Assembly: GCA_026417655.1 (NCBI GenBank)
Contig: JAOACS010000008.1
Coordinates: 62,001-126,000 of the forward strand
Length of the DNA: 64,000 nt
Source of the DNA: Syntrophobacterales bacterium
GTDB taxonomy: Bacteria > Desulfobacterota > Syntrophobacteria > Syntrophobacterales > Thermodesulforhabdaceae
Direction of reading: 5' to 3'
The notes beneath the pieces were generated by a model. It was not told the origin of the DNA and ran no database searches. It saw only the letters and a program-made list of their open reading frames with translations. Every line of letters starts with the position of its first letter. Position 1 is the first letter of the stretch. Positions 3,921 through 62,271 of the stretch are shown in pieces. A program made the translations under genes and the position numbers.

Positions 3921-6503
3921 TTAAAGGTCAGACTCTGTAATATCGTAGATTCCTTGAATGAAGGCCCTGGCCACAACCTCTATCATTCCTTCGGAAGACA
4001 TTAACATATCCATCTGTCTTGTAAATTGAAGAAGGCGACCTAGCTGATCAAGGGTTGACTCTATTACGGAGGGTTCATATTTTTGAAGTCTTCCTTCAAC
4101 TCTGTCAGCGATCACTTCAACGTGGAAATTAAGAAGACTTAGGATTTTTGCTATAGCTCGGGCTCTACGATTTTTCCTTACATCGTCGGCCGCTCCTCCT
4201 TTGAAGGCAAAGGTTATGTAATTTTTGTTAATCGTCTGACCACAATAGCTATCGAGTAGGGCAAAATGGTAGCCAACTCGGGAGCTAAAGTGGAGATACT
4301 TATCCGATACGATAGCGTAGCTCTTATCACCGAATCTTTCCATGAGATGGGGATTCGAAAGTATCTGTTCGCTTAGGACTGAAAAAAAACCTCCAAGTTC
4401 AACAGGCTTAGGAGCTGGTTTAAGAAAGGCCTCGTGGAGCATTCCCTTTAGGAGAGAACGAAATGGAACAGATGTTACAGCATCGACGGGGACCTTATTT
4501 CCCTTTACTTTTTCAAGCAGTAATCCACCTCCTAGGTCTATCACATAAAGATTTAATGGTATTGGCGCATCTAGCCGATAGGCGTTCCCTTCCTCGTCAC
4601 TTAATGAGTCGCTAAGTCTAAACATCTCGCTGTAGGATTTTTCGTGGACAAATCTCATAATATCGTGAAGGGTTTTACAACCTTCGGGAGAGAAATTGGG
4701 GGCCTGAGGATCAATAAGGTTGAGGGGCACAATAAACCTTGCGAGCTTTTCTAGAGTCCTGTAAACAGGGGTTCCCTTCATGGGTGTAGCCTCTCTAGAG
4801 GCCTCCACAATAAGATTCCGAAGGCTTTCTGGGAGTGCTCCTTTGTAGACTTTCCCATGAAAGGCATCTACCGTAATCTCTTCGCCCTCTGGGATGATTT
4901 TTGTGGCCTCCTTTGTATCGAGCAGGGTGGGAATTTTAAACTCTCTGGCCACCGAGGCCATGTGTCCCGTTATACTACCTGCATCGGTTACAATGGCACT
5001 TATGCGATCCATAACGAGCACAAACCTTGGTGACGAGTGGTGAGCAACTAGCACGGCTCCATGGGGGATCCTATGAAGATCATCATTGGAACGGACATGA
5101 AAGGCTGGACCATTTCCAATACCAGGACAGGCTATGGCACCGTTATGGATTAGAACAGGATAGTCTTCAGGGACAATGATCTCCATGATACTTCTGGCCG
5201 ATATGATCTTTAGTGGTCTTGTCTGAAGTAGTACTATGTTATTTTCTGGAGTAAGGGCCCATTCAATATCCTGGGGACAGTTGTAATGGTTTTCTAGCTC
5301 CAATGCATATCTAGCGAGAAGGCGAATATGTTCTTCCTGAAGGCATGGAACCTTTCTTAGATGGTCTTCTACCCTTACTTCGGAGAGACCTCCATCGGGG
5401 TTCAATATGAGTTTTACTGATTTGTCCGAGACATTTATATCGAGAATCTCAAGGTCTTTTCTAACTCGGTAGGTATCAGGTGAGACTACTCCATCTACCA
5501 CATAGGATCCAAGCCCCCAAGAGGCATTTATTACGATGTCACCAGAAGAGGGATTGGAGGGATCTCTCGAATAACATACACCACTTGCTACCGATGGTAT
5601 CATTTCCAAACACCCAACACTCATAGCGCAATACTGGTCATCTATTCCCATTCGGAACCTGTAGGCGATAGCCCTTGGGGTGTAAAGACTAGCTAGCACA
5701 TAACGGTATGATCTAAGGATCTGCTCTCTCGGAACATTGAGGACAGAAACGTATTGCCCCGCAAAGGATATGTCCCCATCTTCTCCTATAGCACTGCTTC
5801 TTAAAGCAACATTTATGTTAGATCCTATGGACTTAGCCAAATTATCATAGGCTTCAAGAATTGCTTGGGCCAAGCCATCGGGGATTTTCCCAGATATGAT
5901 TTTTCCTTGGATGATCTCACTCGATTCTTCAATAGCCTGGAGATTTTGAAAATCGGTTTCCATGAGAATCTTATTTATCTCGTTTCTTAAGTCATTTGCT
6001 TCCATGAATAGGTGAAAGGCATCTACTGTAATGGCAAATCCCCTGGGGATAGGCAGTCCAAGTTTAGTATACATTTCACCTAGGTTAGCGTTCTTCCCGC
6101 CAACTTTCTCTATCATCTCCTGAGAGATATTATTGTATTGAAGAATCCATGCAGCCTCCGATGCCTCTCGGTGTTCCTCTAGGATATTCTTTATTTGGGT
6201 TTGGATATGGTGGTGCACATCGTAAAGCTCTAAGTAACCTTTATTAGAAAGACTATTTAGCCTCTCAATCATCCTGAAGCTGTGAAAGATCGACCTTGTC
6301 GCCATCGATCGAACGTGGCTCATACCAAACATAGTTTTTCCTTGAAGCTTATCCTCTATTTCGGAAATGACCTTCGCCATTTCCGTATTAGAATCCAAAA
6401 GCTCCTTGAAGTGCTGGTATTTGAGACGAAATAATTCCGACTGCCTAGTTGGTGGGTGTTCACGGTTTTTAAAAATCTTACGTAGCCACGAAATTATGGA
6501 CAT
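3921..6503 (-). CDS. PEP-synthase-like ATP-grasp/phosphohistidine protein (paralogue A)
   Basis: 860 residues. Residues 1-125 are a charged helical region found also in the paralogue at 9114. About 130-440 match the PEP/pyruvate-binding ATP-grasp domain (GGKNANLGEM, ALRSSAIGEDG, PQDIEWALT, LLQTRPL). About 455-555 form the swivelling phosphohistidine domain, with His514 in ITGHMASVAREFKIP; PEP synthases usually have S-H where this has G-H. The PEP/pyruvate TIM barrel is absent and replaced by about 300 residues I do not recognise. This argues against a normal PEP synthase; autophosphorylation on His514 and transfer to another partner is inferred. A GAGGA Shine-Dalgarno precedes the ATG, and a sigma-54 promoter lies 58 bases upstream. 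Confidence 0.8.
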   Translation of the reverse strand: MSIISWLRKIFKNREHPPTRQSELFRLKYQHFKELLDSNTEMAKVISEIEDKLQGKTMFGMSHVRSMATRSIFHSFRMIERLNSLSNKGYLELYDVHHHIQTQIKNILEEHREASEAAWILQYNNISQEMIEKVGGKNANLGEMYTKLGLPIPRGFAITVDAFHLFMEANDLRNEINKILMETDFQNLQAIEESSEIIQGKIISGKIPDGLAQAILEAYDNLAKSIGSNINVALRSSAIGEDGDISFAGQYVSVLNVPREQILRSYRYVLASLYTPRAIAYRFRMGIDDQYCAMSVGCLEMIPSVASGVCYSRDPSNPSSGDIVINASWGLGSYVVDGVVSPDTYRVRKDLEILDINVSDKSVKLILNPDGGLSEVRVEDHLRKVPCLQEEHIRLLARYALELENHYNCPQDIEWALTPENNIVLLQTRPLKIISARSIMEIIVPEDYPVLIHNGAIACPGIGNGPAFHVRSNDDLHRIPHGAVLVAHHSSPRFVLVMDRISAIVTDAGSITGHMASVAREFKIPTLLDTKEATKIIPEGEEITVDAFHGKVYKGALPESLRNLIVEASREATPMKGTPVYRTLEKLARFIVPLNLIDPQAPNFSPEGCKTLHDIMRFVHEKSYSEMFRLSDSLSDEEGNAYRLDAPIPLNLYVIDLGGGLLLEKVKGNKVPVDAVTSVPFRSLLKGMLHEAFLKPAPKPVELGGFFSVLSEQILSNPHLMERFGDKSYAIVSDKYLHFSSRVGYHFALLDSYCGQTINKNYITFAFKGGAADDVRKNRRARAIAKILSLLNFHVEVIADRVEGRLQKYEPSVIESTLDQLGRLLQFTRQMDMLMSSEGMIEVVARAFIQGIYDITESDL

Positions 6504-6560
6504 GATGAAATTCCTCGATAAAAGGTTGTAAGAGGGTGTGTTATCCTCTTTTGTGGATTA

Positions 6561-6575
6561 GCAAAGGTTATGCCA
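6561..6575 (-). promoter_or_regulatory. Sigma-54 promoter for PEP-like paralogue A
   Basis: On the minus strand the sequence reads TGGCATAACCTTTGC. The -24 GG and -12 GC are exactly 10 bases apart and both boxes (TGGCA, TTTGC) fit the consensus. The predicted start is near 6549, about 47 bases before the ATG at 6503. Confidence 0.82.
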
Positions 6576-6587
6576 TAGATTAATCTA
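6576..6587. promoter_or_regulatory. Perfect 12-base palindrome
   Basis: TAGATTAATCTA equals its own reverse complement. It abuts the -24 side of the leftward sigma-54 promoter. It could be a regulator site, but its AT-rich content makes chance possible. Confidence 0.4.
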
Positions 6588-6605
6588 ATCACCTCGACTC
6601 TTCTC

Positions 6606-6623
6606 CAAGGTAGAAAAACCTTG
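6606..6623. promoter_or_regulatory. Inverted repeat CAAGGT-N6-ACCTTG
   Basis: Two perfect 6-base arms around a 6-base spacer, lying between the divergent sigma-54 promoters. It is a candidate dimeric activator site. Its right half overlaps a 15-base string that recurs before the DUF2760/Hsp70 operon. Confidence 0.45.
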
Positions 6624-6744
6624 TCATTATTAAAGATTTTTGCATACTGTAAAAATACTGGACATAGAGAAGATACTGGTCTGAAAGTAAAGTTGGCTAG
6701 AAAGGCTTTTTCCTCATCGAGTAGGGTAGGGTGAGATAGGTAGA

Positions 6745-6759
6745 TGGCATAAGTGTTGC
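6745..6759 (+). promoter_or_regulatory. Sigma-54 promoter for the Cache kinase operon
   Basis: TGGCATAAGTGTTGC has the -24 GG and -12 GC exactly 10 bases apart and consensus TGGCA and TTGC boxes. The predicted start is near 6771, giving a leader of about 49 bases to the ATG at 6820. It probably drives the kinase, receiver and second PEP-like protein together. Confidence 0.85.
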
Positions 6760-6819
6760 CACGTGAAATAGAGAACCTTTTAACTCGGACTAGATCTTAC
6801 GGTAGGCTGTGGAGATATT

Positions 6820-8643
6820 ATGCATGAACCTAGATACTACACTCAATTGCGAAACAGAATATTTCTTATTATTGTAAGCACATCTCTTATTCCAGTTATC
6901 TTTATAGCCATGGTTACCGGTTACATGTTCCACACCTCCTATAAAGCCAAGATCGTTGGCTATCTTTCAGAGCTAATTCAAAAACATGCCCAAAGTATAG
7001 ATTCCTTCCTAGCTAACAGTGTCTCAACCGTTACCATGATAACACTCTCAAATGACGCTAAAAAACTTCAGGATCCCGATCATCTCTCGAACATTATTTC
7101 AGTGCTTCAGACTTCCCACGGTGGTGTCTTTGTTGATATTGGCTTTATTAGAGAGGATGGGATTCAGGTTGCCTACGCAGGTCCATTCAAGCTAGGTATG
7201 GCCTTTTACGGCAATTCGGAATGGTTTAGGGAGGCTATAAAGAACCCTTACTCTATAAGTGATGTATTCTTGGGTCTCAGAGGCCTTCCTCATTTTGTAA
7301 TAGCGGTAAGGCTTGAAGATGAGGACCGAATATGGGTGCTTCGATCGACCATAGATTTTGCTTATTTTACCAAAATTGTTGAAAATATAAAAATAGGGGA
7401 GACGGGAGAGGCTTTTATCCTAAGTAAAGACGGTAATCTCCAAACGTCGCTAAATTCTCCCTATTCTAAAGACTTACTTAAATCGATAGCAACGGTTGTT
7501 TTTTCTGATTCTTTAGGGAGAGAAAGAGAAGGATACCCCATTGGTGATATTTACCACACCAACCCGAAGCACTCCTACGACAAGCCTGTTACACTTGAAA
7601 CAAGGAAGACGACCTATGTGTTTAAAAAAGAGGATGCTAGTGGAAGATCTATAATTTATGTAGCCGTTCCACTCAGGATGAACAATTGGGCTCTTGTTTA
7701 TCGCCAGTGGGATTCCGAGGTTTTTATGGACATTTACAAAGCCAGGTCCATTGTATTCAGTGTAATTGTCATTAGTATCTTTCTATTGACCGGTTTAGGA
7801 TGGAGGCTTTCCAATCGAGTTGTCGAGAGAATAAAGCAGGTTGACAGGGAAAAGGATGCTATGAATGACCAGATTATTGAGGCAGGAAAACTTGCTGCCT
7901 TGGGGGAACTAGCAGCCGGCATTGCCCATGAGATTAATAATCCTGTTGCGATTATGGTCGAGGAAGCAGGATGGATTGAAGACTGTCTTAGAGATTTACC
8001 CGATAAGGAAATGGAGATCTATAAAGAGATAGCTAAGTCCGCAAAGCAGATCAAAACCCAAGGGGCTAGATGTAGGGAAATTACCCATAAGCTTCTTACC
8101 TTTGCTAGACGCAGTGATACCCTAGAAAGGCGAGTCTTTCTTAATACCCTTCTTAACGAGATCGCAATCCTATGCGAACAGAGGGCCCGATATGCTAAGG
8201 TTAAGATAGAGAAAAAGTTTGATGAGGAGATCCCTGCGGTTGCCATATCTCCAACGGAGATGCAACAGGTTATTCTTAATCTTATAAATAATGCAATCGA
8301 TGCTATGGAAACTCAGTGCGGAGGAGTGCTAACCCTATCTACCAAGTTTATCAATGATTGGGTTGTGCTAGAAGTGAGCGATACGGGACCTGGCATTCCC
8401 AAGTCAATTCTTCCAAGAATTTTTGACCCCTTCTTCACGACCAAACCTGTCGGTAAAGGAACCGGTTTAGGGCTTTCTATCTGCTACGGCATTATAAAGA
8501 AAGCTGGGGGCAATATAGAAGTGGAAAGTGAAGTAGGTAAAGGGACCACATTCAGAATATGGTTACCTCCCGTGCAACCTCCTAATAGTCTTATTGTAGG
8601 GGCTTCTCCTGAGGATTTGTCATCTATCAAAATGAGGAACTAG
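6820..8643 (+). CDS. Cache-domain sensor histidine kinase
   Basis: 607-residue membrane kinase. A transmembrane segment at about residues 13-33 and a second near 309-327 bracket a periplasmic Cache-type sensor region (about 35-300). Next come a short coiled linker without an obvious HAMP domain, a HisKA H-box with His370 in AAGIAHEINNPV, and an ATPase domain with NLINNAIDAM, DTGPGIP and GKGTGLGLSIC. The ATG has GGAG 7 bases upstream. The receiver gene starts 23 bases downstream, so the two are a likely cognate pair. The ligand is unknown. Confidence 0.93.
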   Translation: MHEPRYYTQLRNRIFLIIVSTSLIPVIFIAMVTGYMFHTSYKAKIVGYLSELIQKHAQSIDSFLANSVSTVTMITLSNDAKKLQDPDHLSNIISVLQTSHGGVFVDIGFIREDGIQVAYAGPFKLGMAFYGNSEWFREAIKNPYSISDVFLGLRGLPHFVIAVRLEDEDRIWVLRSTIDFAYFTKIVENIKIGETGEAFILSKDGNLQTSLNSPYSKDLLKSIATVVFSDSLGREREGYPIGDIYHTNPKHSYDKPVTLETRKTTYVFKKEDASGRSIIYVAVPLRMNNWALVYRQWDSEVFMDIYKARSIVFSVIVISIFLLTGLGWRLSNRVVERIKQVDREKDAMNDQIIEAGKLAALGELAAGIAHEINNPVAIMVEEAGWIEDCLRDLPDKEMEIYKEIAKSAKQIKTQGARCREITHKLLTFARRSDTLERRVFLNTLLNEIAILCEQRARYAKVKIEKKFDEEIPAVAISPTEMQQVILNLINNAIDAMETQCGGVLTLSTKFINDWVVLEVSDTGPGIPKSILPRIFDPFFTTKPVGKGTGLGLSICYGIIKKAGGNIEVESEVGKGTTFRIWLPPVQPPNSLIVGASPEDLSSIKMRN

Positions 8644-8666: not shown

Positions 8667-9068
8667 ATGCAGCCACAGGAAACAAAATATCCCCAGAGAA
8701 CACTTAAGGTACTAATTGTAGATGATGAGGTGGCCTATGTGGATGTGCTTCGAAGGCGCATGCAAAAAAGAAATGTTATAGTTGAAACCGCCAATAGTGG
8801 CAGTGAAGCTATAAGAAAACTTAGAGAGTCGTCCTTTGATATTGCGATCATAGATCTAAAAATGGAAGATATGAGCGGAATTGAGGTCCTTAAAATCTTT
8901 AAAAAGATGGATCCCGATATGCCCGTTATTATGATAACTGGTCATGGTTCTGAAGAGGCAGCCCAAAATGGTATAACCTGTGGTGCCTATGATTATCTTA
9001 TGAAACCCTGTGATTTTGAAACTCTTATGGAAAAGATCAACAAGGCGGTATTAAACAAAAGGGGTTGA
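8667..9068 (+). CDS. Stand-alone response regulator receiver
   Basis: 133-residue CheY-like receiver with no output domain. The acidic pair is in LIVDDE (residues 17-21), the phosphoacceptor is Asp63 in IIDLKMEDMSG, and Thr/Lys switch residues are in MITGHGS and LMKPCDF. It lies between a histidine kinase and a PEP-synthase-like gene. Lacking an output domain, it probably acts by protein contact or as a phosphorelay intermediate; the neighbouring PEP-like protein or the GAF kinase are possible partners (inference). Confidence 0.92.
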   Translation: MQPQETKYPQRTLKVLIVDDEVAYVDVLRRRMQKRNVIVETANSGSEAIRKLRESSFDIAIIDLKMEDMSGIEVLKIFKKMDPDMPVIMITGHGSEEAAQNGITCGAYDYLMKPCDFETLMEKINKAVLNKRG

Positions 9069-9113: not shown

Positions 9114-11738
9114 GTGCAATTCTTAAAAAAATGGTTAAAATACATAGGAAAACGGGAAGAAAAATCCTTAGATTCGAACGAGTTAAGGCTTATTTTTCAA
9201 AATAGATACCATAACTTTAAACTTCTTCTTAACGCGAACAACCGATCCCTTGAGGTTATGACAGAGATTGAAGAGAGGTTAAGAGGCCGTGAACCCTTTG
9301 GTATGACCTTTATCCGTTCTCGGGTAACTAGAGTAAGTGCCAGCGTATTTCAAATGATACAGTACTTAAACAATCTCTCATCTCAACGTTATCTCAAGCT
9401 TTATTCTAGATTTCGGGATATAGAAGAATCTATAAGGCAAATCCTGGAAACAAAGATCACCACAACCAATGCTCCTCTTGTAATCCCAATGGATGAGCTC
9501 AGCCGAGATTCGATAAATCTTGCTGGTTCCAAAATGGCGACCCTTGGAGAACTCAAGCACGCCCTTGGCATAAAAGTCCCAGACGGTTTTGTTATCACTT
9601 CAGAGGCCTATAGAAGGTTTTTGATGCATAACGATCTTATTTCCGAAATTAACCGGCTCATTCAGAAAACTGCCGCTGAGACTATAGATAATTTTTTTGC
9701 TCTGAGTTCCTCTATCCAACAACTCATATTAAATTCTCGGATCCCAGAAGAGGTTGAAGATGCCATCATATGTCAGACGAATGAGATGCTAAAAAAACAC
9801 GGTCCATCCCTTACCTTTGCCTTAAGAAGCAGTGCCCTTGGAGAAGATACCCTTGGGCATTCTTTTGCGGGTCAATACCGATCAATACTTAACGTTAATC
9901 CTGACCACATCCTCCAGTCCTACAAAGAAGTAGTTGCAAGTATGTATGGCCTTCCGGCCATGACTTACCGCTTCCGGCACGGTATTCGTGATGAAGATGT
10001 AGCCATGTGCGTAGGTTGTCTTGCCATGATTGATCCGATAGCGTCAGGTGTGGTTTACACAAAAAGTCCCTTTGAGTCGGGCGAGGAAGATAACATTTTA
10101 ATTCATTCAGTATGGGGACTTCCAAAACCCGTGGTAGATGGTTCTCTTGAGGCAGATCTCTTTGTAGTGTCTCGTCGAGAGCCCTTCGATATAACATCCG
10201 TTAACCTAGCTATTAAAGATGTTGCCTATATTTCACTCCCAGAGGAAGGTGTAGCACGGGTGGAAATGCCCCCTCATCAGTGGGATATACCGTCTCTTAC
10301 CGAAGATCAGATGAAGGAGCTCGCGGGAATAGCTCTTTCCATTGAGCGTTACTATGGAAGGCCCCAGGACATAGAGTGGGCGCTGGATGGGATGGGAAAC
10401 TTTATTATTCTCCAAAGCCGGCCTTTACAGGTTCGAGGACATGAAAAAAGTCAGGATGACCAGAAAATTCGCAAGCCTTTTAATCCCGAGCATGTTATCC
10501 TTAAGGGTGGAGTGACGGCGAGTCCAGGGGTAGCTTCTGGAAAGGCCTTTGTGGTAAAGCGAGATGCGGATGCTTTAAGGTTTCCAGATGGTGCTATTCT
10601 TGTGACTGAACTCGCCCTTCCTAGATGGGCATCTCTTTTAGGAAGGGCTTCGGCGGTGATAACAGAGGTGGGAAACGTGGCTGGACATTTGGCAAATGTG
10701 GCAAGAGAGTTCAAAATTCCGGCAATATTTGGGCTTTCAGGAGCTACTCGTTTACTTAGAGAGGGCGATGAGATTACGATAGACGCTGACGAAAGGGTTG
10801 TCTTGAAAGGGCTTGATGCGATCCCTCTGTCGGAGCGTGAGACTGAAAAGGGCATGATGATTGGAACCCCGGTTTATAAGGTTCTTTACGATGTTTCTCG
10901 GCTTATCGTTCCCCTTTACCTTACTGACCCGGATTCTATAGATTTTAAACCAGACAAGTGCTCCACCTATCATGATATTACTCGATTCTGCCACGAGATG
11001 TCTGTTCGAGAAATGTTTCGTTTTGGTAGCGAATTCAAATTTGCCGAAAAAGCAGCAAAACGGCTCGTAACTGAGAAGAAAATGCAGTTCTGGATATTGG
11101 ATCTAAATGACGGGTTTCATCAGGGAGCGGTCTCTCCTGATGCTCAGTATGTCCGAATTGAGGATATAGCCTCCATACCGATGATAGCTTTATGGGAGGG
11201 CATGATGTCTGTGCCCTGGGGTGGACCTCCACCAATTAAAGCTAAGGGGTTTTTGTCTGTATTGGCTGAGTCCACTATTAATCCCAGTCTTGATCCAGCG
11301 GTTGCTAACAATATGGCGATTAAAAACTACTTTATGATATCCAAAAATTTCTGTTCCCTTCAGTCACGTTTCGGATATCACTTCTCTGAAGTAGAGGCCT
11401 TGGTTAGTGAGCGGACAAGAGAAAACTATGCTAGTTTCCATTTCAAGGGAGGAGCGGCAAATTTAGATAGGCGAGTCCTTAGAGCGAAGTTTATAGCTTC
11501 TCTTTTGGATCTATGGCGCTTTCGCTGTACCGTAAATGGTGATGCCTTATCTGCGAGAATAGAGGGAAGGGATATTGAAGAGATGAAGGATGCTCTTCGA
11601 GTGCTTGGTTATTTGATTATCCACACACGACAGCTTGATATGGTTATGACTGATCCTCAATCGGTTACATTTTATCGGGAAAAGATGCTCGCCGACCTCC
11701 AGAAACTTTGCAATGTGCTAATGCCGGTTCTAGATTAA
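9114..11738 (+). CDS. PEP-synthase-like ATP-grasp/phosphohistidine protein (paralogue B)
   Basis: 874 residues with the same order of parts as the divergent gene at 3921: N-terminal helical region, ATP-grasp (GSKMATLGEL, ALRSSALGED, PQDIEWALDG, ILQSRPLQV), swivelling domain with His525 in VAGHLANVAREFKIP, and a C-terminal region of about 300 residues replacing the PEP/pyruvate barrel. Shared C-terminal strings include FHFKGGAA here versus FAFKGGAA in paralogue A, and SRFGYHF versus SRVGYHF. The GTG start at 9114 follows a GAGAGG/TAAGGA stretch. The pair arose by duplication and has diverged well. ATP-dependent autophosphorylation is plausible; the acceptor is unknown. Confidence 0.8.
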   Translation: MQFLKKWLKYIGKREEKSLDSNELRLIFQNRYHNFKLLLNANNRSLEVMTEIEERLRGREPFGMTFIRSRVTRVSASVFQMIQYLNNLSSQRYLKLYSRFRDIEESIRQILETKITTTNAPLVIPMDELSRDSINLAGSKMATLGELKHALGIKVPDGFVITSEAYRRFLMHNDLISEINRLIQKTAAETIDNFFALSSSIQQLILNSRIPEEVEDAIICQTNEMLKKHGPSLTFALRSSALGEDTLGHSFAGQYRSILNVNPDHILQSYKEVVASMYGLPAMTYRFRHGIRDEDVAMCVGCLAMIDPIASGVVYTKSPFESGEEDNILIHSVWGLPKPVVDGSLEADLFVVSRREPFDITSVNLAIKDVAYISLPEEGVARVEMPPHQWDIPSLTEDQMKELAGIALSIERYYGRPQDIEWALDGMGNFIILQSRPLQVRGHEKSQDDQKIRKPFNPEHVILKGGVTASPGVASGKAFVVKRDADALRFPDGAILVTELALPRWASLLGRASAVITEVGNVAGHLANVAREFKIPAIFGLSGATRLLREGDEITIDADERVVLKGLDAIPLSERETEKGMMIGTPVYKVLYDVSRLIVPLYLTDPDSIDFKPDKCSTYHDITRFCHEMSVREMFRFGSEFKFAEKAAKRLVTEKKMQFWILDLNDGFHQGAVSPDAQYVRIEDIASIPMIALWEGMMSVPWGGPPPIKAKGFLSVLAESTINPSLDPAVANNMAIKNYFMISKNFCSLQSRFGYHFSEVEALVSERTRENYASFHFKGGAANLDRRVLRAKFIASLLDLWRFRCTVNGDALSARIEGRDIEEMKDALRVLGYLIIHTRQLDMVMTDPQSVTFYREKMLADLQKLCNVLMPVLD

Positions 11739-11768
11739 CCCATGGAGACATCGACCAGGGGGTCTAAT

Positions 11769-13037
11769 ATGACCGAGAATCGGGTAGTTCTTTGCTTTGA
11801 TCAAATTCTTGTCAATGATAGGATATTTAGACCTTTGATAAATCTTAGTAACTTCCTTTCTCAGGCTAGTAGCCTTAAAGAGATACTTAATGGAAGTATT
11901 CAACTGATTCTTCAGGAATTTAACATTGATGCTGGACGAATCTACCTCATGGATCAAAGTAGAGGCGATCTTTACTTAGCCGCCTATCAGGGGATTGAGA
12001 TTTCCGGTCTTGAAAGGATTCAGATCGGACAGGGGTTTACGGGGAAGGCAGTAGAACTTCGCTCCTTTATAGCCTTTAGAGTAGAGGAGCTGGAAGATAA
12101 GGAGAGAGTGAAGCTACTTCTCAGTAAGGGTTTGAATATTATATATTGTGTTCCCTTTGTAGTTATGGGAAAAGTAGAGGGAGTAATGAACCTTGGATCG
12201 AAGAGGGATACCATGATCTCCCATCAAGATATGCAAATTCTTTTTCTAATGGGACATCATATCGGTGTTGCCATAGCCCATGCGAAACTCTGCGAGGCCC
12301 TTAATGAGAAGATCCGGCTTCTTGAAGAGCGTAAAGAAACAATAAAATTTTTTGCCTATTCGGTAAGCCATGATCTCAAAAGCCCTGCTATAGGCCTTTA
12401 TGGTCTTTCAAAAAGGCTTATGGAAAAACACGGTAGCGATCTTCCAGAGAAGGCTCAGCTCTACTGTAGGCAGATCATGAAGGCTGCAGAAGAGATAGTG
12501 GCCCTTGTAGAATGTATAAATAACTACATTTCTGCTAGAGAAACCCTGGAAGAACCTCAGTCATTTCCCGTCTCTGAACTTATTGAAACTATAAAGTCCG
12601 AGTTCAAAGGCAGGCTGGAGAAGCAGGGTGTAACGCTCGTTGTTCAAAACAGTTTGCCATCTATAGTTGGATACCCTCACCTGCTTCTAAGAGCCCTGAG
12701 AAATCTTGTAGACAACGCTCTTAAACATGGTGGTAGCGACCTTTCCCGTATCCAGATAGAGGTCGAGGAAACTCCCGATTTTTGGATTATAGCCGTTAAG
12801 GACAACGGTGTTGGCATTCCACCTGACATGGTTGATAAGATATTCGAACCCTTCAGAAGGGGTGTGACCAAAACAGAGGGATCAGGACTTGGATTGGCGA
12901 TAATATCGGAAGTGGCTAATAGGCATAATGGCAGGGTGTGGGTAGAATCCTCTCAAGAAAAGCGTAGCACAACCTTTTATCTTACAATCAGTAAACACTT
13001 AGGTGGTAAAGAATGCAAACCTCCAACTTTACAGTGA
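11769..13037 (+). CDS. GAF-domain cytosolic sensor histidine kinase
   Basis: Soluble kinase of about 422 residues with no membrane segment. A GAF domain (about residues 35-175) is followed by HisKA with His201 in SVSHDLKSP and an ATPase domain with LVDNALKHG, DNGVGIP and GSGLGLAI. I place the start at ATG 11769, which has AGGGGG 6 bases upstream, rather than the in-frame ATG at 11742, which has no Shine-Dalgarno. It follows PEP-like paralogue B by 30 bases and precedes the acyl-CoA synthetase by 11. The H-box resembles phytochrome-like kinases. It may sense a cytosolic small molecule through GAF (inference). Confidence 0.9.
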   Translation: MTENRVVLCFDQILVNDRIFRPLINLSNFLSQASSLKEILNGSIQLILQEFNIDAGRIYLMDQSRGDLYLAAYQGIEISGLERIQIGQGFTGKAVELRSFIAFRVEELEDKERVKLLLSKGLNIIYCVPFVVMGKVEGVMNLGSKRDTMISHQDMQILFLMGHHIGVAIAHAKLCEALNEKIRLLEERKETIKFFAYSVSHDLKSPAIGLYGLSKRLMEKHGSDLPEKAQLYCRQIMKAAEEIVALVECINNYISARETLEEPQSFPVSELIETIKSEFKGRLEKQGVTLVVQNSLPSIVGYPHLLLRALRNLVDNALKHGGSDLSRIQIEVEETPDFWIIAVKDNGVGIPPDMVDKIFEPFRRGVTKTEGSGLGLAIISEVANRHNGRVWVESSQEKRSTTFYLTISKHLGGKECKPPTLQ

Positions 13038-13048
13038 GGTAGGAGATT

Positions 13049-15760
13049 ATGGGACTCCGAGGACTTGATGCTATCTTTAAGCCCCAGAGCATAGCAGTGG
13101 TGGGTGCTACGGAACGGGAGGGCTCTGTGGGACGGGCTGTAATGAAAAACCTTTTGGAAGCACAATTCCCTGGTCTCATCTATCCGGTCAATAAAAATAG
13201 GAAAGAGGTGTGGGGCAAAAGGGCTTTTCCCTCCGTTAGGGCTATAGAGAATCAGGTTGATCTTGCAATAATAGCCACACCGATAGAAGAAGTTCCTCAG
13301 GTGTTGGAGGATTGCAGCTTTGTGGGGACTAGAGGAGCCATTATTCTTTCGGCAGGAGGTAGGGAGACCGGAGAAGAGGGACGTATTATTGAGGAGCGAA
13401 TAGAGGAAGTGGCTCGTTCCAAGGAAATTCGGTTAATAGGACCTAATTGTCTTGGGATAATTTGTCCCGATCGCCATCTTAACGCGAGCTTTGCTTCCCA
13501 TATGCCTTCTTCTGGACGACTCGCCTTTATCTCCCAGAGTGGAGCCCTGTGTACCGCTATTCTTGACCTCGCTGTAGAGGAGAAGATCGGTTTTAGCTAT
13601 TTCGTGAGTATAGGATCCATGCTGGATGTGGATTTTGGAGATCTCATTGATTACTTTGGTAACGATACAAAGGTAAGTAGCATTATTGTCTATATGGAAG
13701 GACTTACAAATCTTAGAAAATTCATGAGTGCTGCCCGTTCCGTGTCACAGGTAAAGCCTATCGTTGTTTTAAAGGCTGGCAGAAGTCAAGCGGGGGCTCA
13801 GGCAGCTTCATCTCACACTGGAGCTATGACGGGAGAAGATGTGCTATACGACGCCGCCTTCGAGAGGGCGGGTATTGTCAGGGTAAGGGAGATCAGAGAA
13901 CTTTTTGACTGTGCTGAACTCCTTGCAAAGCAATCGAGACCGTCGGGACCAAAGCTTGTTGTTATAACTAACGCTGGGGGACCTGGGGTTATGGCGGCGG
14001 ATGCAGTTTCCGATGCAGGCCTTGAACTGTCAAATCTTGGGACCGAAATTACGAATGAACTAGATAGCTTCCTACCTCGTTGTTGGAGTCGAGGAAATCC
14101 TATAGACATCTTAGGAGATGCTACCCCAGATCGTTACAGCAAAACGATTCAAACCTGTTTAGGATCCTCCGATGTGAACGGCATCCTTGTAATTTTAACC
14201 CCACAAGCGATGACGGATCCAACGGCCGTTGCCGAGACATTGTCAAAGATGGTCATCCGTAGACCTATGCCTGTTCTCGCATGCTGGATGGGAGGCCACG
14301 ATGTGCTTCCAGGGAGAGCAATCCTAAATAAGGCTGGTATTCCCACCTATGAAACCCCCGAGGAAGCGGTAAGGGCCTTTAAATATCTTTATGATTACTC
14401 GAAGACTCTTGAAGCTATTCAACAAATTCCTCCAAGATTTTCTAAATTCATCACCTCTGATAGAGCGGAGACGGCTAGGTTAATAGAAGAAGGGTTAGAA
14501 AAATATTGGGGAATACTAGGAGAGTGGCAATCGATGGCTATTCTACGGGCCTATGGGTTTCCTGTAAATAGCATAGAGCTTGCGAAAACGAAAGAAGAGG
14601 TCTGCCAACTAGCTAAAACAATGGAACCACCCTTTGTAATGAAGATAGCCTCACCCGATATCCTTCACAAGACAGAGGCTCGAGGTGTCAGGTTAAATCT
14701 CACAACGGAGGATGACATTGCAAAGGCCTACGATGCCATAATGGCTGCCGCCAAGGAATACAAACCCGATGCGCGAATAGATGGTGTAACCCTCCAGACA
14801 ATGATAAAGGACCATGATTATGAATTACTTATAGGTGCGAAACAGGATCCGCTTTTCGGACCAGTCATTCTGTTCGGTTGGGGCGGGATTTTTACAGAGA
14901 TTTTAAAGGATCGGGCCATAGGGATACCACCTCTGAATCGAGCCCTTGCTAAGCTCATGATAGATAAGACCAAGGTATCTAAACTACTGAAAGGTTACCG
15001 AGGACGTCCCCCTGCGGATTTTGAACTTCTCGAGGAATTTCTTGTGCGATTGGCTAATCTTGTGACTGATTTCCCTCAAATTCAGGAACTCGATATGAAT
15101 CCAGTCCTCATAAAGAATGGTAAACCAATAGTGGCCGATGCTAGAATGATTCTTAAACCATCCAAGGTGGAAGCTCCAATGCATCTTATAATAAGCCCCT
15201 ATCCAGATCAATATGAATGGCACGTGGAGACTTCTGGGGGCATGAAGTTGTTTGTGAGACCAGTAAGACCTGAGGATGCACCGCTTTTTGAGGATCTTTT
15301 TAAGGTTCTTTCTCCTACAAGTGTCTATTTCAGATTCTTCAGACCAATGAAGGCTCTTCCCCATTCACTCCTTATCCGTTTTACTCAGATTGATTACGAT
15401 CGAGAAATAGCTCTGGTTGCCATTGATAAAGAATCACAACAGGAGCGGATGCTGGGAGTGGCAAGGGTTATAACGGGAGCGGATAAGGATGAAGCTGAGT
15501 TTGCAGTGCTAGTAGGGGATCCATGGCATGGGAAAGGTATTGGAGCAACTCTTTTAAGGAAGTGCCTTGCGATTGCAAAGGAGCGAGGAATAAAGAGCGT
15601 ATTTGGTATAGTGCTTCCTGAAAATACCCAGATGTTAGCTCTGGGGAGAAAGCTAGGCTTTACTATATGCAAGGCTGTAGGGGGAGAATGTGAGTTAAGG
15701 ATAGACCTTGAGAAGATGTCCTTTGAAGAGTTAGAGGGTTCCATAAACGATGGAGGTTAA
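13049..15760 (+). CDS. ADP-forming acyl-CoA synthetase fused to GNAT acetyltransferase (Pat/AcdAB-like)
   Basis: 903 residues: CoA-binding domain (VVGATEREGSVGR, residue 17 on), succinyl-CoA-synthetase-like domains, an ATP-grasp domain (about 475-700) and a C-terminal GNAT domain (about 725-895) with acetyl-CoA loop WHGKGIGATLL. The phosphorylatable histidine of ADP-forming acetyl-CoA synthetases is retained as His256 in SSHTGAM; as I recall, this is lost in the enterobacterial Pat enzymes. It may therefore be both an ATP-yielding acyl-CoA synthetase and a protein lysine acetyltransferase. ATG at 13049 has GGAG upstream. The stop overlaps the first in-frame ATG of the next gene. Confidence 0.88.
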   Translation: MGLRGLDAIFKPQSIAVVGATEREGSVGRAVMKNLLEAQFPGLIYPVNKNRKEVWGKRAFPSVRAIENQVDLAIIATPIEEVPQVLEDCSFVGTRGAIILSAGGRETGEEGRIIEERIEEVARSKEIRLIGPNCLGIICPDRHLNASFASHMPSSGRLAFISQSGALCTAILDLAVEEKIGFSYFVSIGSMLDVDFGDLIDYFGNDTKVSSIIVYMEGLTNLRKFMSAARSVSQVKPIVVLKAGRSQAGAQAASSHTGAMTGEDVLYDAAFERAGIVRVREIRELFDCAELLAKQSRPSGPKLVVITNAGGPGVMAADAVSDAGLELSNLGTEITNELDSFLPRCWSRGNPIDILGDATPDRYSKTIQTCLGSSDVNGILVILTPQAMTDPTAVAETLSKMVIRRPMPVLACWMGGHDVLPGRAILNKAGIPTYETPEEAVRAFKYLYDYSKTLEAIQQIPPRFSKFITSDRAETARLIEEGLEKYWGILGEWQSMAILRAYGFPVNSIELAKTKEEVCQLAKTMEPPFVMKIASPDILHKTEARGVRLNLTTEDDIAKAYDAIMAAAKEYKPDARIDGVTLQTMIKDHDYELLIGAKQDPLFGPVILFGWGGIFTEILKDRAIGIPPLNRALAKLMIDKTKVSKLLKGYRGRPPADFELLEEFLVRLANLVTDFPQIQELDMNPVLIKNGKPIVADARMILKPSKVEAPMHLIISPYPDQYEWHVETSGGMKLFVRPVRPEDAPLFEDLFKVLSPTSVYFRFFRPMKALPHSLLIRFTQIDYDREIALVAIDKESQQERMLGVARVITGADKDEAEFAVLVGDPWHGKGIGATLLRKCLAIAKERGIKSVFGIVLPENTQMLALGRKLGFTICKAVGGECELRIDLEKMSFEELEGSINDGG

Positions 15761-15764
15761 GGTA

Positions 15765-16736
15765 ATGAATGGAAGGGGAATTCTCGTAGCAGTCGATGTA
15801 TCCGAGTGGGCCTATAGGGTTGTTGAATATGCGGGAATAGTCTTAGGGGCTGAAAGTGATATACCGATTACGATTTTGCATGTGATGAGCCCTCTTCCTG
15901 AGAGCTTTTGGGATGTGGAGAGTAGCCCTCTTGTCACTTACAGACCGGAAGCTATGCTGGCATGGGATGTGGCTCAGAGAAAGGCTGTGGAAGCCGAGAT
16001 GGAAAAGCTTGCAAATATTTTAGTGGGTCAAGGTATCTCACGGGATCGAATTAACATTATGGTTCAGCAGCGTCAGGTGGGTATAGCACGAGACATTGTC
16101 TTTGAAGCTCAGAAAGGTTATAAGGCCCTGGTGGTAGGAAGAAGAGGAGCAAGTAGATTAAAGGAGCTTATTATTGGAAGTATCGCATCAAAGGTTCTTT
16201 CAAGACTTACCACCGTTCCCCTGTGGGTTGTTGGAGAGAAACCCCAAGACAAGGGTATCGTTATAGGATTAGATCCCTCAGAAGAGGCCATGAAGGCCGT
16301 AAAATACGTAGCCTCTATTTTGGGAGGAAAAGACCGACCCGATTGGACAATTCATCTGATCCATGTGGCGAGAGCTCTCGAACTTCTTACAGTAAATTAC
16401 GATCCCTTTTTTACCCCCGACGAACGGGTTGAATGGATGAGACGAGTAGAGCAGCAGCATATGGAAGAGATTAGGGCAAAAATGGGGGATGTCTTCGAGG
16501 AGGCGAGAAAGATATTAGAAGAGGCTGGTATAAGGAGGAAAAGGATCCAAGAAGATATCATCTCTGGAGCTTATAGTAGAGCCGCTACACTTATAGAAGA
16601 AGCCCGAAAGCGTAACTGTGGAACTATAGTTGTTGGCCGTCGGGGACTTTCAAAGATTGAAGAATTTTTCCTAGGTCGGGTAAGCAGTAAAACACTTCAG
16701 ATGGCTTCAGATAAGACCGTGTGGATTGTAGGATAA
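15765..16736 (+). CDS. Tandem universal stress protein (two UspA domains)
   Basis: About 323 residues with two UspA domains: the first from ILVAVDVSEWA to VGRRGASRLKELIIGSIASKVL, the second from GIVIGLDPSEEAMKAV to VVGRRGLSKIEEFFLGRVSSKTL. Both keep the ATP-binding G-x2-G-x9-G-S/T-type tail in recognisable form. The ATG at 15765 is preferred over 15750 because GGAGG lies 8 bases before it. It closes the signalling island and is likely co-transcribed with the acyl-CoA synthetase/GNAT gene. Nucleotide sensing and partner regulation are family-level expectations. Confidence 0.9.
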   Translation: MNGRGILVAVDVSEWAYRVVEYAGIVLGAESDIPITILHVMSPLPESFWDVESSPLVTYRPEAMLAWDVAQRKAVEAEMEKLANILVGQGISRDRINIMVQQRQVGIARDIVFEAQKGYKALVVGRRGASRLKELIIGSIASKVLSRLTTVPLWVVGEKPQDKGIVIGLDPSEEAMKAVKYVASILGGKDRPDWTIHLIHVARALELLTVNYDPFFTPDERVEWMRRVEQQHMEEIRAKMGDVFEEARKILEEAGIRRKRIQEDIISGAYSRAATLIEEARKRNCGTIVVGRRGLSKIEEFFLGRVSSKTLQMASDKTVWIVG

Positions 16737-56179: not shown

Positions 56180-57322
56180 TTACCCTAAACCCATCCCCTT
56201 AAAAACTGAGAGCATAATAGCTGCGGCCATAACAGAACCGATCTGACCTCCTGTGTTTGCTCCCATAGCATGCATTAAAAGCCAATTGTTGGTGTCATAA
56301 CGCCTTCCCTCCGTCTGGACTACTCTTGCGGCCATGGGATAGGCTGAGATACCGGCGGCCCCAATCAGGGGATTGATTTTGCCTTTGGTAAGAAAACACA
56401 TTAGCTTCCCAAAGAGGACCCCCGTTACTGTGTCAAGGCAGATAGCTACCAGCCCCAGGGCGAGAACAAGCAGTGTTTGTGGTTTTAGGAAGGTGTTTCC
56501 TTCCATTGTGCCACCAATAGCTAATCCCAAAAGAAGGGTGACTATATTGGCGATTTCGTTTTCTGAGGCCTTTGTAAGTCGAGCTACCACACCGGATTCC
56601 CTCATAAGATTACCCAACATCAGCATCCCCATAAGAGGCGTTCCCATAGGAGCAATAAGACAACAGGCAAGGGTCACAACAATTGGAAAGAGAAGCTTGG
56701 TCCTTTTGGATACGCTCTTGTGGGATGGGTATTCCATTCTGATAAGCTTTTCCCGTTTGGTTGTAAGGATGCGCATAATGGGAGGTTGAATTAGAGGCAC
56801 GAGGGCCATGTAGGAGTAGGCAGCCACGGAAACAGCTCCAAGAAGATGGGGCGCATACTTAGATGTTACATAAATCGATGTAGGACCATCACATGCTCCT
56901 ATAATGCCTATAGAGAGGGCTTCCAGGAGATCAAACCCTAAAGCAATAGCGATAAGAAATGTTAGAAATATTCCAAACTGGCCTGCCGCACCCAAAAGAA
57001 GGATTCTTGGGTTTTCCAAAAGAGGGGTAAAGTCTGTCATAGCGCCGATCCCGATGAAAATAAGACAGGGGAAAACCTCGTTGGCGATCCCAAAATTGTA
57101 AAACTGCCTTAAAAGTCCCTCTTGACCCATAAGATCTGCCAAAGGGATGTTTACTAAAATGGCACCAAACCCAATAGGAACAAGAAGAAGAGGCTCGTAT
57201 CCCTTTTTTATACCTAGATAAAGTAGCAAACATCCAACCGCGATCATGACAGCGTTTTGAATAGTAAGGGCACCAATACCTGCGGTGAGAGCTGAGATGC
57301 TAGAAAGAATAATCTCTCCCAT
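56180..57322 (-). CDS. oadB: Sodium-pumping decarboxylase beta subunit (OadB/GcdB/MmdB-like)
   Basis: 380 residues, 9-10 membrane helices. Family motifs: IGACDGPTSIYVTS near residue 140, MLGNLMRESGVVARLT near 230, INPLIGAAGISAYPMAARVVQ near 318 and HAMGANTGGQIGSVMAA near 351. It couples biotin-carboxyl decarboxylation to Na+ export. No alpha (carboxyltransferase) or biotin carrier subunit lies in the window, so its carboxyl substrate (oxaloacetate, methylmalonyl-CoA or glutaconyl-CoA) is unassigned. The ATG overlaps the oadG stop (TAATG). Confidence 0.93.
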   Translation of the reverse strand: MGEIILSSISALTAGIGALTIQNAVMIAVGCLLLYLGIKKGYEPLLLVPIGFGAILVNIPLADLMGQEGLLRQFYNFGIANEVFPCLIFIGIGAMTDFTPLLENPRILLLGAAGQFGIFLTFLIAIALGFDLLEALSIGIIGACDGPTSIYVTSKYAPHLLGAVSVAAYSYMALVPLIQPPIMRILTTKREKLIRMEYPSHKSVSKRTKLLFPIVVTLACCLIAPMGTPLMGMLMLGNLMRESGVVARLTKASENEIANIVTLLLGLAIGGTMEGNTFLKPQTLLVLALGLVAICLDTVTGVLFGKLMCFLTKGKINPLIGAAGISAYPMAARVVQTEGRRYDTNNWLLMHAMGANTGGQIGSVMAAAIMLSVFKGMGLG

Positions 57323-57471: not shown

Positions 57472-57531
57472 AAAGACCCTCCCCTGAGCTCAGTTGAATT
57501 TCCTAAAAAGACTGGCCGGGACATATTTTTA

Positions 57532-57546
57532 GCAAGAGCTATGCCT
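57532..57546 (-). promoter_or_regulatory. Sigma-54 promoter of oadGB
   Basis: On the minus strand AGGCATAGCTCTTGC: -24 GG and -12 GC exactly 10 bases apart, with GGCA and TTGC boxes. Predicted start near 57520, about 50 bases before the oadG GTG. Confidence 0.8.
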
Positions 57547-57644: not shown

Positions 57645-57660
57645 TGGCGAAAATTCGCCA
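57645..57660. promoter_or_regulatory. Palindromic upstream activator site 1
   Basis: TGGCGAA-AA-TTCGCCA, perfect 7-base arms. It lies about 99 bases upstream of the oadG sigma-54 -24 element, at a distance typical of enhancer-binding proteins, and 26 bases after the regulator gene stop. Confidence 0.75.
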
Positions 57661-57685: not shown

Positions 57686-59104
57686 TTAAGGCTTTTTAGA
57701 AGGGGGTGGTACTATGGGGGATATGTTATACTTTTCAATCTTATATCGGAGCGTTCCCCTTGGGATTCCTAACAGTTTGGCTGCCTGAGAGATATTTCCC
57801 TGAACCATAGCTAATGCCTTTTCAATAATAACAGAAGTGAACCTGTCTATCATCTCCTCCAGATTAATCCCTTCGGGAGGTATGTTTATAGGAAATGATA
57901 GAGAATTGTCCGATAGGGTATCAATACCATGGGCTATCTCTAGGGGAAGATGGTGTTTTTCTACGATCCTATCATCATGCATTATGCAAATTCTCTCGAT
58001 GGTATGGGCCAACTCTCGGACATTTCCAGGCCATGGGTAGGTTAAAAGAAGGTGTTTTGCCTCGAGGGAAAATCCCTGAAAGTGCCGATTATATTTTTTA
58101 TTATATTCGGCAAGAAAATGCTTCGACAGGGCGATAATGTCCTCAGGACGCTCTCTAAGAGGTGGTATATGAATTGGAATAGCATTTAATCGAAAATAAA
58201 GATCTTCTCTGAAGTTCTTCTCCGCTACGGCCCTTTTAAGGTCACGATTGGTAGCGGCTATTATCCTCACTTCCACATCATGATAGTTGGTGCTCCCAAT
58301 TCTTCGGATGCGTTTATCCTCAATAACTCTTAAAAGCTTTGCTTGAAGTCCTAGGGCAAGTTCTCCTATTTCATCAAGGAATATAGTTCCACCATTGGCT
58401 GCTTCGAAGAGGCCAATCTTTCTTTCTCTAGCTCCAGTAAAGGCTCCCCTTTCATAACCAAACAGTTCGCTCTCCAGGAGTTGTTCTGGAAGGGCTGCGC
58501 AATTTACCTCTATGAAGGGTCTTTCGGAACGGGGGCTAAGAGCATGAATGGTTCTTGCGAAAAGATCCTTTCCAGTTCCGGTTTCTCCTGTTATTAGAAC
58601 AGTTGTGTCGGAGAGGGTAGCAACTTTTTTTAGCTTTACAAGAAGCTCTTGCATTGATGGACTTTCAGCTATTAGAGGTTTGCCCTTTAATATATCCTTG
58701 TAGTGTGATCTAAAGGCTTTAACTTCCTTCCTAAGCCGCTGTGTTTCAAGGGCAAGTTTTACAATAAGCTTTATTACATCGGCCTTGAAGGGCTTTTTAA
58801 TGTAATCGTAGGCACCTAGTTTAAGAGCTTCAACAGCGGACTCTACTGATGCATATCCGGTTATAATCACAACTATCAGATCTGGATCCTCTTCTTTAAG
58901 TTTTTTGAGAACCTCAATCCCCGGGATATCAGATAGCTTAAGATCTAGCAAAACCAGATCGACGGATGAAGACTTAACCGTTGCTATCGCTTCGCTCCCC
59001 GTTTTGGCCACAATACTTTCGTAACCCTCTTCCCTGATTATCCGTTGGAGGTTTTCACAGATAAAATCTTCGTCATCGACTATCAAAATAGTATCTCCAG
59101 TCAT
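57686..59104 (-). CDS. NtrC-family sigma-54-dependent response regulator
   Basis: 472 residues: receiver with phosphoacceptor Asp54 (VLLDLKLSDIPG), AAA+ domain with Walker A GETGTGKDLFARTIHAL, GAFTGARER sigma-54 contact loop and FLDEIGELALGLQAKLLRV, and a Fis-type HTH (ISQAAKLLGIPRGTLRYKIEKY). It should bind the palindromes at 57645-57680 and open the oadGB sigma-54 promoter. It overlaps the kinase gene stop by 4 bases, so the two are one operon and a cognate pair. Confidence 0.95.
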   Translation of the reverse strand: MTGDTILIVDDEDFICENLQRIIREEGYESIVAKTGSEAIATVKSSSVDLVLLDLKLSDIPGIEVLKKLKEEDPDLIVVIITGYASVESAVEALKLGAYDYIKKPFKADVIKLIVKLALETQRLRKEVKAFRSHYKDILKGKPLIAESPSMQELLVKLKKVATLSDTTVLITGETGTGKDLFARTIHALSPRSERPFIEVNCAALPEQLLESELFGYERGAFTGARERKIGLFEAANGGTIFLDEIGELALGLQAKLLRVIEDKRIRRIGSTNYHDVEVRIIAATNRDLKRAVAEKNFREDLYFRLNAIPIHIPPLRERPEDIIALSKHFLAEYNKKYNRHFQGFSLEAKHLLLTYPWPGNVRELAHTIERICIMHDDRIVEKHHLPLEIAHGIDTLSDNSLSFPINIPPEGINLEEMIDRFTSVIIEKALAMVQGNISQAAKLLGIPRGTLRYKIEKYNISPIVPPPSKKP

Positions 59105-62100: not shown

Positions 62101-62172
62101 AAGGACAATAGGTGGCATAAGAGAAAGTATTAGAAGGAATAGGGTGAATTTTTTGGCTATAGAAATACGCAT
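59101..62172 (-). CDS. Cache-HAMP-GAF-PAS sensor histidine kinase
   Basis: About 1023 residues. Helices near residues 7-30 and 388-410 bracket an extracytoplasmic Cache sensor of about 350 residues. Then HAMP (ARAITKPILHLSRKA), GAF (about 515-650), PAS (about 660-790), HisKA with His808 in GIAHEMRNPLTG, and ATPase motifs NLFINAIQAMP, DTGEGI, GSGLGLAIVHSIV. I choose ATG 62172, since the in-frame ATG at 62187 lies 1 base after its AGGAG. Coupled to the sigma-54 regulator gene. Confidence 0.92.
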   Translation of the reverse strand: MRISIAKKFTLFLLILSLMPPIVLGMMHLANLHELEKIAVEKSSIQLEQKSRESLEVRAVELANRVSEFLQSIEVDAHTLCMMPKRLDVLQKFYSIHKKTIWTRDGTNDHPIEIRKELPLYREIAFIDLSGKELIKIVDGEPVPQNLLRDVSKPENTTYKSETYFNEVMKLPKGKIYVSHVTGWFVSLEEQLQGAPELEMAVEGKKYEGIVRFAIRCEGGADSPEGVIVLSLDHRHLMEFTMHILPTEERFVVFPSYKSGNYAFMFDDEGWIISHPKFCDIRGLRPDGSPFDPTAPYYTRENLLLGKVPFNLDYAGIINPNYPFIASEVRKGRSGVTNTFNVGGIPRVMAYAPIFYYQKPYDRYGIFGGITIGVDTTTFKAPISRTEKAITSIIRRTKIQNFLVMGITILASILFAFLLARAITKPILHLSRKAMEIAEGKVPEDIELKTGNEIETLSTSLAKMAKEIHQYRNHLENSLKELASSKKSLEQYSYELEKQVWIIKNIHYLSQLLSTIYERDRVLEEVLKTSVKGLGYDRAILYLFDPSSRQLVCHGTFGFSEEHERRAKSLSFHIDREDCSITRAFRHGKTIFLEEVTELDTRIVKEWESKGFVWTPLRTGNQVIGVIGAERLERYSSFSKIEVEALEILANDTARAIERSELYRGLIGEKNFISSILLHVPIGIIVLGEDGKIKWFNPYAEKLFGIQDAEGKQYSQVFINFPSWKKIIEEAIHSIHLARSVVEHNLIFPDGKERIIEYSYSSIDKTEGDEKLFLISCRDITKRKQMEEHMRRTDRLASLGVLAAGIAHEMRNPLTGISLMLDDLHDHLHDNREERELIQRALEEIERLENLINSLLDFATPSRELRLEPTSLSSIIADTLLFMRKLAKNHHVRITTEIDDNIPPIQADREKMKQVFLNLFINAIQAMPNGGILTIGVSKAPESIRVTISDTGEGISPEDIPYIFDPFFSRRPRGSGLGLAIVHSIVVEHGGRVAVSSNLGKGTTFVIDFPTQQSKIAKEGDSL

Positions 62173-62271
62173 TCCTTCCCTCAGCATACTCCTTTTTGTT
62201 TTCTAGTCTAAATTAGCAACAGGGTCTTCATCATTCAAGGATAGATAGGGCTTTAAACTAGAGTTTCCACG

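Follow-up and report, generated by a model that had tools for sequence, protein, structure and literature searches.

The window analyzed here is a stretch of 64,000 nucleotides (G000:C19:62001-126000) from the 2.30-Mb host assembly G000. Within it, a 316-bp intergenic region separates the gene of a PEP-synthase-like protein, PPS1, from an operon read in the opposite direction, which begins with a dCache sensor histidine kinase and includes the PPS1 paralogue PPS2 (Table 1). The initial annotation described two paralogous phosphohistidine proteins together with a kinase/receiver pair, and this description agrees with what is found, being both PPS proteins paralogues with ATP-grasp and phosphohistidine swivel domains, and being the dCache histidine kinase and a stand-alone receiver located between the PPS genes.

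Table 1. Features of the divergent region and its flanking genes, in window positions
Feature	Position	Strand	Remarks
PPS1, PEP-synthase-like	3921..6503	-	PPDK_N ATP-grasp and phosphohistidine swivel domain; C-terminal domain without a named family
Sigma-54 promoter box TGGCATAACCTTTGCT	6560-6575	-	GG-N10-GC; among the 10 perfect genomic boxes
Candidate enhancer TGTCCAGTATTTTTACAGTATGCAAAA	6638..6664	-	Palindrome core 6638-6654
Sigma-54 promoter box TGGCATAAGTGTTGCC	6745-6760	+	GG-N10-GC; also kept in nine other genomes, the sister genome included
dCache sensor histidine kinase	6820..8643	+	First gene of the plus operon
Stand-alone response-regulator receiver	8667..9068	+	
PPS2	9114..11738	+	PPS1 paralogue
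GAF-domain histidine kinase	11742..13037	+	Kept after PPS2 in several relatives
CoA-binding/ATP-grasp acyl-CoA synthetase-like protein with GNAT domain	13049..15760	+	Operon order conserved
Universal-stress-protein-like gene	15750..16736	+	Conserved operon end, from gene order; named by sequence inspection

Sigma-54 boxes of the divergent region

Two sigma-54 boxes facing apart, with GG-N10-GC spacing and about 50 bases before their first genes, had been proposed for this region, and both points are borne out. Each box has a TGGCAY-like -24 element, a TTGC -12 element and the GG-N10-GC spacing, with the edge of the minus box 57 bp from the ATG of PPS1 (6503) and that of the plus box 60 bp from the ATG of the dCache kinase (6820). 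The boxes stand back to back, 185 bp apart, and give the top two scores within the window, 17.1 for the minus box and 14.6 for the plus box. In pattern searches, from which all genome-wide box counts derive, the exact pattern TGGCAYRN4TTGC has 10 sites in the 2.30-Mb genome, both boxes included, and with one mismatch it has 173 sites versus 58 for the backwards pattern. The other eight perfect boxes lie at amtB-glnK, fliD, three TauE/SafE loci and a heterodisulfide-reductase-type operon, plus two sites without assignment. Among these, the amtB and fliD sites, belonging to classical sigma-54 genes, provide the box model with positive controls. The presence of rpoN in the host genome would be only implied, by these two boxes and by the bEBPs encoded there.

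Conservation of the boxes across homologous loci was also compared. The plus box is kept before orthologues of the kinase-PPS2 operon in nine genomes, namely that of the sister species and eight more from the order. The minus box is poorly conserved, being degenerate in the sister species (G037), where the homologous place holds only GGGTATAATTTTTGCC with a score of 6.5; because non-conserved boxes in close homologues had been named as a refuting observation, this counts in part against the original proposal. In this case, homology of the two minus boxes was judged by eye, because a MAFFT alignment of the intergenic regions of both species did not line them up. Moreover, a box scoring at least 12 is found in 11 of 103 PPS1 upstream regions from relatives, some of these loci duplicating one genome, versus 1.6 from shuffles, an enrichment of about seven-fold.

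An extended -10 sequence, TGGTATAAT, is also observed upstream of PPS1 in L081, L087, L097, L101 and L108, and in L031 at 6141-6156, and in L101 it lies side by side with a sigma-54 box. The presence of TGGTATAAT before PPS1, at places where a sigma-54 box is found in other genomes, suggests promoter-type switching. Elsewhere in the window, a sigma-54-like box, AGGCATAGCTCTTGCT (57531-57546, minus strand), precedes a membrane-protein gene (56180-57322), and a different perfect palindrome, TGGCGAA-TT-TTCGCCA (57645-57660), is found about 100 bp further upstream. Both adjoin an HK/NtrC pair (57686-62187), and this locus is probably a separate regulon.

A candidate enhancer and its recurrence

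Between the two outward-facing boxes lies a candidate enhancer with the consensus TGTC-N6-YTTTACA-N3-TGTAAAR, whose profile is TGTCagnaTTtTTTACAnnnTGTAAAa. Distances from its centre are 71 bp to the minus box and 99 bp to the plus box, which would place the candidate at enhancer distance (about 70-200 bp upstream) from both, being the 71 bp shorter than the usual element-box distance. A single palindrome is conserved between the divergent regions of the two species, TTTTGCA-TAC-TGTAAAA in the host and TTTTACA-CGG-TGTAAAA in G037. A 28-mer, TTTTTNCANNNTGTAAARRTAYYRGACA, was built from the divergent-region and TauEa-promoter sites of both species. With up to three mismatches it has exactly two matches in the host genome, one between the boxes and one 93 bp upstream of the box of TauEa, a TauE/SafE transporter gene, and the two best matches in G037 are the orthologous divergent promoter and the TauEa promoter, whereas the reversed pattern has zero matches in either genome. 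The element was not found at the amtB, fliD, heterodisulfide-reductase, TauEb, TauEc and NtrC57-neighbour promoters of the host. The element thus marks promoters of one gene set and is missing from these other sigma-54 promoters of the genome.

The TauEa promoter is of particular relevance, since the plus-side operon of relatives additionally contains extra receivers, TauEa and a small membrane protein. In the host assembly, one end of contig C28 carries a sigma-54 box followed by REC-REC-TauEa, and one end of contig C3 carries the remainder of TauEa plus the membrane protein; these ends are taken to belong together because in G037 REC-REC-TauEa and the membrane protein are found at one place. 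The TauEa operon is a portion of the ancestral plus-side operon that was relocated in the host genus. With the element present at the divergent region and at the TauEa promoter, both halves of the split operon have kept it.

In the loci fetched from relatives, YTTTACA-N3-TGTAAAR with at most one mismatch has 53 unique sites. A sigma-54 box lies 30-250 bp from 46 of them (median 113 bp; 1.7% expected), and the TGTC arm is present at the fixed offset in 48, whereas six control palindromes have 0-5 sites each in the same loci, none with a box. The paired promoters are those of TauE (25), kinase/receiver (17) and PPS1 (7), with 4 unassigned, a tally that is biased because the fetched loci centre on PPS1. 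A search of 39 whole genomes of the order, less affected by this bias, gives 17 exact palindromes versus 2 for the reversed pattern. A sigma-54 box is found at 70-128 bp from 15 of the 17, and 14 of these 15 precede TauEa-REC-PPS2, kinase/receiver or membrane-activator-PPS1 operons, one being without assignment. The two exact palindromes lacking a box, L158 7028 (G036) and L159 7307 (G037:C3), may have arisen by chance or may serve some other purpose. A variant of the element with a 4-bp spacer is found in G035 and G038. Moreover, in L093, L114 and L119 the TauE and PPS1 promoters diverge around one common element, which indicates that PPS1 can be a member of the regulon elsewhere. Also, the element-to-box distances show helical phasing (period 10.5, R 0.39, p ~4e-4), which is no more than suggestive, given that orthologous sites do not count as independent observations.

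The candidate activator and alternative readings

The initial annotation tied both operons to one activator. A candidate for this role is found in the host genome, although its gene is encoded outside the window. In L227, L228, L229 and L040 an HK-regulator pair immediately precedes the element and the TauEa operon, and in G005 the regulator gene is beside the element-bearing kinase promoter. The best full-length host match to the G005 regulator is 69%, at C20:35723-37117, with other matches reaching at most 47% over the full length, or 54% for the AAA+ region alone. Orthologues at 62-85% are present in 23 of the 39 genomes, and they co-occur with PPS1: both are present in 22 genomes, a single one in 2 and 1, and neither in 14 (Fisher p ~1e-7, relatedness ignored). 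In G036 and G019, the latter 88% complete, the palindrome is present and a regulator orthologue was not found. Cultured relatives with both element and regulator include Desulfoferrobacter suflitae DRH4 and Desulfacinum infernum, the latter having one mismatch in its element. A GAFTGA loop is common to the orthologues, and their recognition helix reads SRPTL/SRPAL, being SRNTL the motif of NtrC-like paralogues; a bEBP with a GAFTGA loop is thus encoded in the host genome. The C20 regulator (G000:C20:35714-37117) shows the architecture of the NtrC family but is not labelled the NtrC orthologue, its score against the NtrC profile TIGR01818 being 507.5 bits, below the cut-off of 558.6. The proposed tie between element and C20 regulator rests on adjacency and co-distribution.

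Both operons probably share activation by one NtrC-type regulator through the candidate enhancer. This reading is favored because one element lies between the boxes, recurs at the same module and has the regulator adjacent to it in relatives, with a clear orthologue in the host. From these observations we infer binding, activation and sigma-54 dependence as follows. The intergenic region would be a bidirectional sigma-54 control region, where one NtrC-family response regulator, putatively that of the HK-RR pair at G000:C20 (about 34.2-37.1 kb), would bind the palindromic element and activate sigma-54 polymerase at both outward-facing boxes. The output would be PPS1 in one direction and the kinase-REC-PPS2-GAF kinase-acyl-CoA synthetase-USP operon in the other, and the same regulator would drive the TauE/SafE operon at the C28/C3 contig ends.

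It seems unlikely that the plus promoter alone belongs to the regulon, with a lineage-specific or fortuitous minus box and PPS1 normally under sigma-70. The degenerate minus box of the sister species would fit such a scenario, as would the extended -10 that several relatives carry before PPS1 and the restriction of high-scoring PPS1 boxes to 11 of the 103 upstream regions. However, the minus box of the host is a perfect match at the usual gene distance, placed on the opposite side of the common element, and both the enrichment of PPS1-side boxes over shuffles and the same layout in L093, L114 and L119 speak against this scenario.

We also consider it quite improbable that both promoters are sigma-54-dependent and respond to another bEBP, for example, the in-window NtrC57 (57686-59104), or to a different one on each side. 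Such a reading would fit the 14 strong Sigma54_activat matches of the genome, the remote position of the C20 regulator relative to the targets proposed for it, and the membrane-anchored activator that adjoins PPS1 in many relatives. Nonetheless, the box neighboring NtrC57 has a different palindrome and not this element, a full-length orthologue of the membrane activator was not found in the host genome, and a single clear host orthologue exists for the regulator that accompanies the element in relatives; NtrC57 and the membrane activator were both rejected as candidates on these grounds. Finally, although box-like sites with up to three mismatches abound in the window (221 versus 199 expected), chance boxes at a region free of sigma-54 control can be dismissed as extremely improbable, since perfect sites are rare genome-wide, ten random sites would give 0.008 pairs within 200 bp and about 0.002 outward-facing pairs, and here two of the ten face outward at the right distance around a common conserved element, with the plus box conserved in nine genomes.

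The activator adjoining PPS1 in relatives is a one-component sigma-54 activator of 846-920 aa with HAMP and Sigma54_activat domains, probably membrane-anchored (L047 3339-5879, L050 1936-4698). In many Desulfobacterota its gene immediately precedes PPS1 and diverges from TauE, and in L085, L089 and L044 this gene is itself downstream of a TTTACA/TGTAAA element.

PPS proteins, TauE/SafE transporters and known systems

The PPS proteins match PF01326 and PF00391, with an invariant swivel-domain histidine (PPS1 His514), and the AlphaFold model shows that the first two domains match PEP synthase and rifampin phosphotransferase (PDB codes: 2ols, 5hv1), which likewise combine ATP-grasp and phosphohistidine swivel domains. 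However, likeness to PEP synthase ends near residue 577-587, and a profile search gave no match to its PEP-binding domain in the PPS proteins. Moreover, PPS1 scores 371-383 bits against the PEP synthase NCBIfam equivalogs, well under their curated cut-offs (740 and 598). An assignment of PPS1 and PPS2 as PEP synthases was rejected on these two grounds, and PEP-synthase-like should be the proper label. For the C-terminal ~290 residues (about 572-860), no clear match was found among solved structures, being the best Foldseek E value 0.018 and the best VIA-align Z score 6.3 over 64 residues; scores this weak do not allow naming a structural relative, and the absence of a match does not show a new fold.

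Several traits of the system are known from Desulfovibrio vulgaris Hildenborough, where NtrC-type regulators use mostly palindromic sites upstream of -24/-12 promoters (PMC3333781, PMC4641369), nine sigma-54 operons encode TSUP or PSE transporters (PMC4641369), and divergent sigma-54 operons, such as those for type III secretion and orange protein, are under one activator (PMC3333781, PMC4641369). The host system resembles these regulons in regulator type, palindromic sites, transporter targets and divergent operons. However, the main texts of both papers do not mention a PEP-synthase-like gene, and the TTTACA/TGTAAA string does not occur in the main text of PMC3333781; as far as these texts go, the regulator and element look separate from the D. 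vulgaris regulons and are seen in Syntrophobacterales and related orders. In a literature search that misses most subscription journals, no paper was found that connects TauE and PEP-synthase-like genes with sigma-54. Judged from sequence, the system would be a new regulon whose parts, an NtrC-family regulator, an enhancer and divergent sigma-54 promoters, are each of known type. The promoter pair thereby leads to a regulon hypothesis with one element, one candidate two-component activator and fixed targets across much of Desulfobacterota.

As for function, a close known system is the Desulfovibrio 'nitrate cluster' (DVU0251-DVU0245/Dde_0597-0605; PMC4001038), which shares with the host module a TauE/SafE protein, a histidine kinase, a stand-alone receiver and a protein with PPDK_N and swivel domains. 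In D. vulgaris, transposon insertions in the TauE, receiver or PPS-like gene lead to nitrate resistance, and a leaky thiosulfate transporter was suggested in that study (PMC4001038). That insertions in the PPS-like and receiver genes give the same resistance as those in TauE is a genetic hint for a link between PPS proteins and the transporter. However, the nitrate cluster has a periplasmic PtxB-like protein, whereas the host locus has a dCache kinase and no PtxB-like gene; also, the host PPS proteins are of a different subfamily and the host TauE genes are on other contigs. By analogy, the window operon likely serves the control of a small-anion transporter. A more specific and rather doubtful proposal is that PPS-like proteins, together with the kinases and receivers, control or energize TauE/SafE through a PTS-like, ATP-driven phosphorylation, for transport of inorganic (sulfur oxy-) anions, with co-expression through the enhancer. 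In any case, an uncharacterized family of PEP-synthase-like phosphohistidine proteins is tied here to TauE/SafE, as the Desulfovibrio nitrate-resistance genetics already hinted.

The Pseudodesulfovibrio locus L217 has the gene order of the nitrate cluster, namely TauE, a protein of about 200 aa, a PtxB-like protein, HK, a 119-aa receiver and a PPS-like protein with ~32% identity to PPS1. Finally, a second divergent sigma-54 pair is observed in the host genome (L056 9730/9934; G000:C2 about 99.7-99.9 kb), where a TauE/SafE gene (TauEc) faces a molybdopterin-oxidoreductase-like gene, an arrangement conserved in the sister species (L153). TauEc and the gene that follows it are similar to DVU0251-0250, and TauEc is found next to the HK-REC-PPS genes in Pseudodesulfovibrio (L217).
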